Part shown: piece by piece, positions 1 through 62,932 of the stretch
How the letters are laid out: each line of letters starts with the position of its first letter
How positions within the stretch are numbered: position 1 is the stretch's first letter
Assembly: GCA_949130485.1 (NCBI GenBank)
Contig: OX422199.1
Span: 124,001-188,000 of the forward strand
DNA from: Agelas oroides
Taxonomy: Eukaryota > Porifera > Demospongiae > Agelasida > Agelasidae
Direction of reading: 5' to 3'
Length of the DNA stretch: 64,000 nt
The notes under the pieces: model-generated
Seen by the model: only the letters and a program-made list of their open reading frames with translations
Database searches by the model: none
What the model was told of the DNA's origin: nothing
Made by a program: the position numbers and the translations under genes

Positions 1-119
1 ACTGAGCAAGGGGAGAGAGAGAGGGGGAGGGAGAAGGTAAGTTGGATCAGGTGGAGATAAGAGGGGAAGGAGGTGGAGGGAAGGAGGTGGAGGGAAGGAG
101 ATGAAGGTGACCACCAGAC

Positions 120-3100
120 CTGGTTGTTTGCGCGTCTGACTCGCTGGGCCTCATCATTGGCCTCTGAAATCCTCTTCATGAGAGAAGAGACCTCGTCCTC
201 CTGGTCACGCCCCAGCCCTGAGCAAGAGTACAAGCAACATCAACTGATACATCATTACGTGCAGTGATAACCCCCTCCCTCCTCCCCCCTCCCCCTCCCT
301 CCTCCCCCCCTCCCTCCTCCCCCCTCCCCCTCCCTCCTCCCCCCCTCCCCCTCCCCCCTCCCCCTTCTCCCCCCTCCTCCTGTGTGCAGTGATAACCTCA
401 GTCTTACGTGTCAGCTCAATGTTTTTCTCTTCCGCCTGTTGTCGACCCTTTCTCTCCTTCTCCATGTCGGCCTGTACAACCTGTAGCTGGTGTTGCAGCT
501 CTTGGTTCTCCATCGCTGCCTCTTTGTAGCGAGATTCAAGCTCCTCTTCGGTCTCTCGCTGGACTGCCAGCTCCTAGTGTGGGGGGGGGGGGGAGGAGGG
601 GAGGAGGGAGGAGGAGGGAGGAGGGGGGAGGAGGAGGAAGGGAGGGGGAGGAGAGGAGGAAGGGAGGGAGGAGGAAAAGGGAGTTAAGCTTACATTACAA
701 GCTGTGATAGCTCATTTGTATCACTTGGCTAACTACAGCGTACAATCACTAGGATGTATGGACAACCAATGAACCACATCTCCTCTACATGTAGGTTTTG
801 CTGAGTCTCACACTGCACAGGGCATATTTTGACCAATACCAGGCTACGCTGGGGTGACTGGGACCACATGCAAGGTACCAATGTACCTTGTGTACCATGT
901 GAAACAACGCTACAAGGTTCCAATGTACCTCACGGCAACATGTACCATGTGAAACAACGTACCTCGTGTACCATGTGAAACAACGTACCTCATGTACCAT
1001 GTGAAACAATGTACCTCATGTACCATGTGAAACAACGTACCATGTGAAACAACGTACCTCATGAAACAACGTACCTCATGTACCATGTGAAACAACGTAC
1101 CTCATGAAACAACGTACCTCATGTACCATGTGAAACAACGTACCTGTTTCAGAGACTTGTTTGTCTTGATGAGTTCGGCAACTGTCTTTGACTCAGAGGT
1201 GAGTTTTTTCTGGAGCTGTTCTGTCTCCTTCTTTAGCTTCGAGGAGCTCTGTTGGTCTGTTGCCCGAGACGTCAGTTCGGTCAACTTTTCTTGCAGCTGT
1301 ACACAAGAGAAGAAGGGGGAGGAGGGAGAGGGAGGAGAGAGGGGAGGAGGAGAAAGAGGAGGGAGAGAGGAGGGAGAGGAGGAAAAAGAGGAGGGAGAGA
1401 GGAGTGAGAGGGGGGAGAGAATAGGGGGGAGAGAAGAGGGGAAGGGGGAGGAGGAAGAAGAGTACAGAAGAAAAAGGGGTAATAATGACAAACATGAGAT
1501 CAACGAGATTTAGAGAACCCTCCCTCCCTCCCTCCCCCCTCCCTCCCCACACACATTCCTCTTCTCCTCCTCCCTCCCCCCCTCCCCCCTCCCTCCTCAC
1601 TCACATTCCTCTTCTCCTCCTCCCTCCCCCCTCCCTCCTCACTCACATTCCTCTTCTGCTCCTCCTGTCCCTCGAGTTTCCTCACAGTCTCCTTCTGCTC
1701 CAGCCTCATGATGGCTAGCTCCTTCTCCAGCTCCAAGATTCTTGATTCCCGGGACCTCCTCTGCTCCACCTCATTCTCACAGTCCGAGACCAGCCTTGTG
1801 AGACGCTTCTCCATTGCTCTGTACAGGAGAGGGAGGAGAGGGAGGAGAGAGAGGAGAGGGAGAGAGGAGAGGGAGAAGAAGGGAAGAGAGGCAGGAGGAG
1901 AGGAGGGAGAAGACGGAGGAGAGTGAGGAGAGGAGGGAGGAGAGGGAGGAGAGGAGGGAGAGGAGGGAGAAGAGGGAGGAGAGGGAGGAGAGGGAGGAGA
2001 GGGAGGAGAGGAGAGGGAGGAGAGGGAGGAGAGGGAGGAGAGGGAGGAGAGGGAGGAGAGGGAGGAGAGGGAGGAGAGGGAGGAGAGGGAGGGAGGAGAG
2101 AGAGGAGAGGGAGAGAGGAGAGGGAGGAGAAGGGAAGAGACGCAGGAGGAGAGGAGGGAGAAGATGGAGGAGAGTGAGGAGAGGAGGGAGGAGAGGGAGG
2201 AGAGGAGAGGGAGGAGAGGGAGGAGAGGGAGGAGAGGGAGGAGAGGGAGGAGAGGGAGGAGAGGGAGGAGAGGGAGGAGAGGGAGGAGAGGGAGGAGAGG
2301 GAGGAGAGGGAGGGAGGAGAGGGAGGAGAGGGAGGAGAGGGAGGAGAGGGAGGAGAGGGAGGGAGGAGAGGGAGGGAGGAGAGGGAGGGAGGGAGGAGAG
2401 GGAGGGAGGGAGGAGAGTGAGGAGAAAAAAGAGAGGGAGGCTACATTCACTAGATCCACCCCTGCACCCCCTCTCCTTATACTCCTCTCCTCAAACTCCC
2501 TCACTAGGCCGACCCCTGCACCCTCTATCCCTCTCTCACTTGTAGCTTCTCTCGAGCTCCTCCTTAGCTTCCTGCTCGTGGCTCAGCTGTTCTTCTAGAC
2601 GCACCTTCGCTAGACTCAGCTCGTCCACCTAACAAGACACACATCAACTCAGTGCAGCTAACTCTGTAAGCCACACACCGGCCCCATACATAACGTGATG
2701 TACCATGTAATGCAATATGATACTGTGAGATGTGCAGGATGCAGCCCACATTAGAGAGGAGAAGGTAATACGAACTACCCCAAATAGAGAGAATAATGCA
2801 AACTGCATCGTACAAGTGCACTCACTTTGTCTTGTGCGTGTTTCTGTTGAGAGGAAGACAACAGTCACAGGATCAACATTGTACCACCTTCATTAAATTG
2901 ATTTTAATAACTTACATCCTGTCTGGAATTGCCTTCAGAACTGTCAAGTAATCTACAGCAAGAAATATCATGTGACATCATGTGACATCATGTGAGCTCG
3001 TGACATCATGTGAGCTCATGTGAGCTCATGTGAGCTCAGGTGACGCCATGTGAGTTCAGGTGACATCATGTGAGCTCAGGTGACTCGAGATATTAGTTAC

Positions 3101-61900: not shown

Positions 61901-62932
61901 CAGCACAAATAAAGCAGGTGAGTGGTCAATGGCATGGATCACTGAAGCATGAAGGGTGGACATATTGGGTTAGCATGGATATAAAGGGTGGGTGCATTAA
62001 TAGTTATAATGTGTAAAAGACCCACACAGTCTGGCTAATTGACATGAATTCAAAGTATTTGGCTCTTTGTCTTGTTGTGTCTGAGAGAAGACATGTTTGG
62101 GGTTCATGAATCCTCACACTGAGACCTTTTGACTGCACAAATAACAACACCTGTCTGACCTAGCCTCCTCCCCAGTCCTCGAACCATTGTTGGTTGCAGT
62201 ACGCCAGTTAAGTCCTCCACCATGATCAAGTACAGAAAGGTGCTTTTTGCTCATGTACCTCCCTCTCCACACACACACACACACCTCCTCTCTTCACACA
62301 CACACACACACACACCCCTCCCCTCTTCACACACACACACACACCCCTCCCCTCTTCACACACACACACACCCCTCCTCTCTTCACACACTCACCCACCC
62401 CTCCCCTCTCCACACACACAACACACACACACCTCCCCTCTTCACAGGACTAGTTGATATTGAGTCAGGCAAGGTGAGACGAGGAGTCGAACTTCTTCCT
62501 CTTCGACACAAAATATTCTCCGGCTGGTACAATCGTGTAGCTGTGAGGAAACTAGCTGGCATTCCTCCAGAAAAACGGGCAGAAATATACGAAGAGCTCT
62601 TGAAGTTTCGGAAAGAGATACAAGGACGACCGTACGAGAAGGACAAAGTGGAGTTGATCCTGTCCGCCATCGACATCCAGGAAGGATTCTTGTCTTTTCT
62701 CCGAAACAAGCACGAAGACTTGAGTAGCTTGTTCTGTAGTGAGCTTGTGGCAGCAGCATACCAGCGTATGGGACTCCTAGGGGAAGAGAAACTCTCCAAT
62801 GAATATACTCCAGATGACTTCAGCAGTGCTCGCAATCTCCAGTTGAAGCACGGCTATCTCGAGCCGGAGGTCTACATTGAACTCAAGTTTGACTTTGAGA
62901 GTGATTTTAACCGACAGACGAGTTTCTACTGA
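58920..62932 (+). CDS. Membrane-anchored permuted NlpC/P60 (YiiX-like) cysteine hydrolase
   Basis: Exon 1 (58920-59227) encodes a basic N-terminus and one transmembrane segment (about residues 38-52, HTLLLCVLSFYIVC) then a helical stretch. It joins in phase 2 to 61150-61306, 61857-61917, a small uncertain exon starting 62176, and 62448-62932. Exon 2 has ETGDIVLFSGATSSGAIIKFF and RSQFSHIGL, with the likely catalytic His at about residue 152; the last exon has LFCSELVAAAYQRMGLL with the likely catalytic Cys. The His-before-Cys order is that of circularly permuted papain-fold enzymes (YiiX/DUF830-like). Exon 4 is unresolved: after 61917 the phase into 62176 reads VLEPLLVAVRQL and then needs a weak donor near 62213 to reach the last exon in frame. 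Exon 2 ends in a 50-bp duplication. The nested paralogue lies in intron 1. Substrate unknown. Confidence 0.65.
59528..60481 (+). CDS. Intron-nested paralogue, predicted N-myristoylated YiiX-like protein
   Basis: A 317-aa single-exon frame. It begins MGNFSSSSKSKRK, a classic N-myristoylation start followed by a basic patch, suggesting membrane attachment. Residues 20-115 are Glu/Lys/Ser-rich and disordered. The domain from about 125 matches the neighbour: STGDLALLY, LPHYAVFV (His145), and IVCTLMVAHFYHLLGML (Cys250) followed by a region parallel to its C-terminus. A strong acceptor CCTCCTTTAG at 59499-59508 lies 19 bp upstream and accepts exon 58920-59227 in frame, so the exon may also be an alternative last exon of the membrane-anchored gene (adding RSCLATA before MGN). 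Which transcript exists cannot be told from sequence. Confidence 0.7.
   Translation: MGNFSSSSKSKRKVGKEDNVKVPSEQEPVVDENNPPATETEQREGAAVKEDGSSILQPDKGEAPQTSKEENVSEKKEEVEEAAQTLPDNEKDEEQQETSKHTDSREEMDEPDWKKITKRRFSNIESQISTGDLALLYREGQELPHYAVFVQNSKCDPHFPLLLIKGRTRPVPMSKFSPHMRYAHPISAVTRIFYGDYKQVAIRHLQINEDIPCETAMSMMDQVQKIPFLPQELEAIKNASSSEERSSIVCTLMVAHFYHLLGMLKGDPTTVSPRTLEHHLELSDPVSIKLPPVKLGPIANDDPPLLAKLVYVLRDSI
60484..60734. mobile_element. 251-bp MITE inserted just after a stop codon
   Basis: Terminal repeats CAAGAGCGCATAAGAA and TTCTTATGCGCTCTTG with inner arms GGGCGGC and GCCGCCC. The 6-bp direct repeat ATAGCT flanks it (60478-60483 and 60735-60740) and overlaps the TAG stop of the nested gene. Confidence 0.82.
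61277..61376 (+). repeat. 50-bp duplication of an exon end plus donor
   Basis: Copies 61277-61326 and 61327-61376. Each holds CGCTCCCAG, CTCACACATTGGCCTG and a GTAGG donor (61307 and 61357). The first encodes the catalytic-His segment. Read through in frame, the second donor supplies a TAG stop. Confidence 0.92.

Follow-up and report, generated by a model that had tools for sequence, protein, structure and literature searches.

Does a 5' splice site attract tandem duplication, or does a duplication that happens to fall across a splice site simply survive there? This question is raised by a 64-kb window of the genome of the sponge Agelas oroides (assembly GCA_949130485.1, contig OX422199.1, positions 124,001 to 188,000), in which minisatellite arrays run across exon–intron boundaries in RAB23, MAPK15, IFT52 and a YiiX-like gene. 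A first-pass annotation of this window had reported junction-spanning copies in at least five genes and had suggested that the donor region nucleates duplication. The arrays themselves are real, but those that we accept affect five donors in four genes, MAPK15 contributing two. It is quite probable that they are ordinary minisatellites whose founding duplication straddled a splice site by chance and was tolerated by splicing.

Results

The arrays were checked by direct reading of the sequence, with Tandem Repeats Finder (TRF) and by copy-by-copy scoring of the splice sites (Table 1). The seven-copy array of RAB23 and the IFT52 array were confirmed in all three ways, and the two MAPK15 arrays and the duplication in the YiiX-like gene by direct reading and copy scoring. 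The donor (the slash marks the junction) is kept as CCC/GTAAGT in 7/7 copies in RAB23, as CAA/GTAAGC in 10/10 copies in MAPK15 exon 3, as CCA/GTGAGA in both copies in MAPK15 exon 6 and as GTAGG in both copies in the YiiX-like gene, the protein of which matches the Pfam family Peptidase_C92 (YaeF/YiiX) with 24.3 bits, under the cut-off of 27. The IFT52 array, described earlier as 24 bp in about 16 copies, does span its donor (AAT/GTGAGT), but among the 15 copies that were scored GT is kept in two, the first of all copies reading GTGAGT, and is lost in the other 13. Across the copies of this array, therefore, the donor is not preserved.

Contrary to the initial description, the donor is not the starting point of the arrays, whose 5' edges are scattered 24–41 bp upstream of it, inside the exon (2 bp in the case of ROCK, considered below). 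An acceptor is affected as well: a duplication absent from the first-pass annotation covers the 3' end of the same RAB23 intron whose donor is duplicated, and both of its copies read TTTGTAG/GGAGGAGG with equal acceptor score. Noncoding sequence of the window is touched by 17 complex arrays, five of which span donors, one an acceptor and 11 neither.

Table 1. Tandem arrays at or near exon boundaries in the 64-kb window (positions counted from its first nucleotide)
Feature	Position	Strand	Unit and copies	Relation to exon or intron
RAB23 donor-spanning array	11496–11820	−	46 bp × 7	Exon 11785–11864 ends inside; 36 exon bp
RAB23 acceptor-spanning duplication	10915–11048	−	65 bp × 2.1	Exon 10862–10944 begins inside
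MAPK15 exon 3 donor array	about 50055–50509	+	41/45 bp, 10 copies	Exon 49942–50085
MAPK15 exon 6 donor duplication	51270–51391	+	63 bp × 2	Exon 51112–51310
IFT52 donor array	18201–18588	+	24–26 bp, 15 copies scored	Exon 18116–18224
YiiX-like gene donor duplication	61276–61377	+	50 bp × 2	Exon 61150–61306
ROCK intron array	939–1145	−		Starts 2 bp inside exon 1144–1296; donor-adjacent
MIB intron array	24417–24898	−	21 bp × 23	Inside intron 24415–24911
GREB1-like 27-bp array	41897–41971	−	27 bp	Machine-flagged as sixth donor; predicted 81-bp intron

In RAB23, MAPK15 and IFT52 the proteins encoded across these junctions appear to be undisturbed. When RAB23 is read through the first donor copy and the last acceptor copy, the product aligns with a Rab23 structure chain free of gaps. 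MAPK15 read through the first donors shows no gap at either duplicated donor against four relatives (three sponges and Hydra); its three best matches are all from Demospongiae, Geodia barretti (67% identity), Dysidea avara (65%) and Ephydatia muelleri (64%). The IFT52 protein continues across the junction into the IFT52 (Osm-6-like) chain with a single one-residue gap beside the junction. As judged from these alignments, the intact edge copy is sufficient for the known protein in RAB23, MAPK15 and IFT52, and it is presumably this copy that is used in splicing. The earlier statement that readthrough gives an early stop in most cases is broadly right, as stops begin 1–92 bp past the first donor: after 1 bp in RAB23, 42 bp in MAPK15 exon 3, 83 bp in MAPK15 exon 6, 66 or 92 bp in IFT52 and 1 or 51 bp in the YiiX-like gene, with the frame deciding between the two values in the latter two genes. 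In MAPK15 exon 6 the second donor precedes the stop, and its use would add 63 nt in frame; the corresponding 21-residue insertion was not found in the four aligned relatives.

The rate at which arrays meet splice sites elsewhere in this genome was assessed in stretches fetched around myosin and kinesin exon matches, together with kinase-match loci and others. This sample amounts to 298 kb, or 275 kb after the overlaps were merged and the locus that repeats the window (L001) was left out, and thus covers a part of the genome. Genes were called in the sample and in the window by a home-made predictor trained on 30,480 bases of family-matched coding sequence; of its earlier versions, one based on codon usage only was too weak and one with repeat-masking missed array-bearing exons; in the final run the complex arrays were unmasked. 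Outside the window it yielded 377 confident donors and 406 acceptors, 133 and 135 of which have homology support, and 37 complex arrays with units of at least 24 bp lie there in or across noncoding sequence.

The expectation per junction was computed with each array collapsed to a single unit. At the homology-supported junctions, 1/133 donors was spanned against 1.39 expected, and 0/135 acceptors against 1.41. TRF flagged four of all 377 predicted donors, of which only one, in a myosin gene, is homology-supported (3.9 expected), and one of all 406 predicted acceptors (4.2 expected). The independent sample shows no excess at donors. The first-pass annotation had proposed a genome-wide scan in which a strong 5' excess would support nucleation and the lack of one would refute it; as carried out on these 275 kb, with 1/133 donors against 1.4 expected, repeats overlap donors no more often than expected, small as the sample is.

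A 24-mer test for a nearby copy led to similarly low counts outside the window, 1/129 donors and 0/131 acceptors. Among the control positions 40–100 bp into introns, 23/430 counted from the donor and 12/408 before the acceptor had a nearby copy, and the exon-interior controls had none (0/125 and 0/127). We rely on the collapsed-array expectation because the interior control of the 24-mer test is length-biased and counts expanded arrays many times. An earlier test, restricted to introns with both exons confident, gave no donor and no acceptor in 61 homology introns (0.24 expected), one donor and no acceptor in 214 other introns (1.30 expected), and one donor and one acceptor, both at predicted exons inside arrays, in 40 window introns (0.12 expected).

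Among 365 testable predicted donors outside the window, the 24-mer test flagged six, and two of these were accepted, both at one myosin locus (C6:9462606-9468735; L056, L055, L048). One is a clear donor case, with the exon end ERNFHSFYQ/GTTTGA copied at an offset of 86 bp; the other, in another exon, is decayed (21/24 matches, offset 54). The remaining flags were set aside, those on C15 and C4 being predicted exons inside arrays, that at L019 a low-scoring exon and that on C22 a copy 413 bp away. Four of 397 acceptors were flagged; the one on C4 lies inside an array, and those on C17 and at C6:559950 belong to low-scoring exons. The fourth flag belongs to a kinase locus whose kinase frame contains stops; a 94-bp × 2 duplication at L011:194-383 crosses a predicted acceptor there and is a candidate acceptor case with a coding score of 14 and no homology support.

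In the window, the same test on the unmasked predictions hit 6/82 donors, three of them real (RAB23, MAPK15 exon 3 and YiiX) and three spurious, and 4/86 acceptors, of which three are predicted exons within arrays and one lies on the strand opposite the duplicated RAB23 acceptor. The MAPK15 exon 6, IFT52 and RAB23 acceptor cases come from direct reading and from the analysis of curated exons. The curated set comprises 72 exons of named genes, a part of the exons of those genes, with 71 donors carrying GT and 72 acceptors carrying AG, or 70 and 71 once the GREB1-like junctions had been removed; in its expectation the unit of the MAPK15 exon 3 array was taken as 41 bp in place of the TRF dimer of 86.

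Several figures weigh against a purely random placement. Of the 70 curated window donors five are spanned by complex arrays, a post hoc count, against 1.1–1.4 expected (1.37, P 0.013, for complex arrays; 1.10, P 0.005, for units of at least 24 bp), and 6/71 are spanned (P 0.0055) if the GREB1-like case is counted as an intron. The single acceptor span of the window compares with 1.39 or 1.11 expected. The window also differs from the sample, with 5/70 donors against 1/133 homology-supported ones (P 0.02) and 5/71 against 2/365 predicted ones (P 0.002), and when the window and the homology set are combined, six donor spans are seen where 2.5 would be expected (P 0.04). The ratio of donor to acceptor cases is 6 to 1 (P 0.07), or 6 to 2 if the L011 candidate is real. 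The gene models outside the window rest on a home-made predictor. These counts are small and gene-clustered, two being in MAPK15 and a donor and an acceptor in one RAB23 intron; they include the discovery window, which was singled out for looking unusual, and the myosin locus contributes two cases if the decayed one is counted. The excess in the window is limited to complex arrays and is gone once low-complexity arrays count: six donor spans, with GREB1 included, then face 4.6 expected (P 0.32). The context effect of the entropy filter that separates the two classes is not the source of the excess, because 95% of 6116 non-repeat 46-bp gene-body contexts pass it, yet the inclusion of simple arrays raises the expectation to this 4.6. 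The tilt of donors over acceptors is left as a weak hint.

The window is rich in repeats, with 186 tandem repeat rows (TRF, score 40) and a tandem repeat coverage of 20% compared with 12% in the fetched loci. As it lies 124–188 kb from a contig end, a subtelomeric hot spot was considered and rejected: over 73 loci, repeat density is uncorrelated with distance to the contig end (Spearman −0.14, P 0.22, for complex arrays; −0.05, P 0.66, for any repeat).

Three further arrays of the window had been proposed or flagged as donor cases. ROCK, listed initially as a weaker case, has an array that does adjoin the donor, but just 2 bp of exon are covered and the case is borderline. The other weaker case, MIB exon 4, did not hold up, the array being confined to the intron interior, 13 bp from the donor; this MIB-like intron (497 bp) consists almost wholly of the array. 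In the GREB1-like gene each of three copies of the 27-bp repeat carries CAG or AAG followed by GTGGGC. We dropped its donor and acceptor, the repeat being in frame in two relatives, P0122 and P0123. In P0124–P0126 there are a few residues at the repeat site, too few for an intron, and the relatives vary in length there; the proteins of the relatives may, however, come from gene callers reading through introns. The stretch is most likely a coding repeat, to judge from these comparisons, and, coding in appearance, it could be a proto-intron.

Discussion

The anatomy of the arrays agrees with the alternative that the first-pass annotation had itself offered, namely that an array is tolerated by selection as long as it keeps a donor. 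We suggest the following course of events. In a repeat-rich sponge genome a founding tandem duplication would happen to straddle a splice site. If it lies across a donor, the original exon end and donor would stay intact as the 5'-most copy; if it lies across an acceptor, the original acceptor and exon start would stay intact as the 3'-most copy. With the spliceosome keeping to this edge copy, the protein would be unchanged and the array would be nothing but extra intron, and it would therefore be free to expand and homogenise, probably by slippage or unequal exchange. The junction-spanning arrays would then be the visible tail of a roughly random array placement, as it remains after a filter of splicing tolerance. 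The tilt toward donors, if real, may also be a matter of tolerance, since an additional donor is placed downstream of the true donor, while an additional acceptor is placed upstream of the true acceptor and is transcribed earlier.

The idea that the donor region itself promotes tandem duplication, through R-loops, U1-linked pausing or replication–transcription conflict, could draw on the donor-heavy window, on the clear myosin case with its decayed neighbour and on the six donor cases against one acceptor case. It is nevertheless unsupported, because an acceptor has been hit too, the array edges lie upstream of the donor, in the sample donors are spanned about as often as array density predicts and the IFT52 copies have mostly lost GT; the excess in the window does not survive the inclusion of low-complexity arrays. 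We consider nucleation at the donor quite unlikely, and equally so the broader proposal that in a subset of genes tandem duplication has real hot spots or sinks at the 5' splice sites, with donor-anchored minisatellites as a form of directional intron growth. Such a subset would take in RAB23, IFT52 and MAPK15, which have ciliary roles and make up three of the four window genes, and the myosin locus outside the window with its two cases.

The repeated donors might instead be functional and, as a series of decoy or alternative 5' splice sites, regulate the splicing of these genes. The identity of the donor strings in all copies of RAB23 and of MAPK15 exon 3 could speak for such a function, as could the in-frame second donor of MAPK15 exon 6. 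Recent expansion and homogenisation, however, would be expected to leave the same identity, the IFT52 array keeps GT in so few copies, and the extra 21 residues are missing from all four MAPK15 relatives, so that regulation of this kind seems to us quite unlikely. A miscounting or invention of repeat copies by the assembly is very unlikely. Near-identical copies are indeed prone to being miscounted, but the copies differ by substitutions and unit variants (C/T and A/G in RAB23, 41/45 bp in MAPK15, 24/26 bp in IFT52), and the assembly places 259 Mb in only 141 contigs. The reading as chance duplications tolerated by splicing is, in our view, the best one.

The same kind of structure has already been published in amphioxus, and the sponge arrays, as far as the accounts of the amphioxus cases extend, are that kind in another phylum. 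The amphioxus 'mirage' minisatellites are minisatellite-like tandem duplications across exon–intron boundaries, found at both 5' and 3' junctions, with splice signals in many but not all copies and with regular splicing reportedly undisturbed (PMC3087553; PMC3902484). Adh3 and the globins BflGb6 and BflGb9 are among the examples (PMC3087553), to which the PGBD5 tandem repeats and TnC have been added (PMC3902484). By this description the likeness is close: the sponge arrays span the boundary at five donors and one acceptor, both the 5' and the 3' junction are duplicated in RAB23, and the signals are present in many but not all copies (7/7, 10/10, 2/2, 2/2 and 2/15). In contrast to the mirages, the host is a sponge and not a cephalochordate, and the arrays are known from one assembly and from protein continuity rather than from reverse transcription polymerase chain reaction or allele lengths; length instability, between alleles or somatically, is a further mark of the mirages. 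No sponge case of a splice-site-spanning minisatellite was found in a literature search limited to open-licence papers.

The Rogers model, in which an intron is gained by tandem duplication of an AGGT-containing sequence, one copy providing the donor and the following copy the acceptor (as cited in PMC3087553), resembles the present arrays in that the duplicated unit includes splice-site sequence. It differs, in the form in which it is cited, in that none of our six junction-spanning arrays contains the partner splice site of its intron; for this reason the arrays enlarge an intron and do not create one.

These observations add a sponge to amphioxus as a host of minisatellites across splice sites and suggest that such arrays may occur wherever minisatellites are dense and introns are short. 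With their 2 to 10 near-identical donors, they may also serve as clean natural material for a test of how the spliceosome chooses among equal 5' splice sites. As evidence for donor-nucleated duplication, the arrays fail on the sample available.

Other features of the window and of the sample

A long open frame at 33097–34157 (+), searched as 353 residues, has a strong coding signal and no Pfam match at E 0.001. The GREB1-like gene occupies 35731–43963 (−), and pieces of it match the Pfam families GREB1_2nd, cpSF2-GREB1, TAGT and GREB1_C. P0122 and P0123, unnamed ENA proteins, are 92% and 89% identical to the GREB1-like protein of the window in the alignment, so that public collections seem to contain sequences of its close relatives. 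Among the best 127 of 1370 kinase candidates 129 matches were listed, most of them covering almost the entire domain in one open frame, and several kinase matches lie in tandem clusters, for example at C3:18.15-18.33 Mb.

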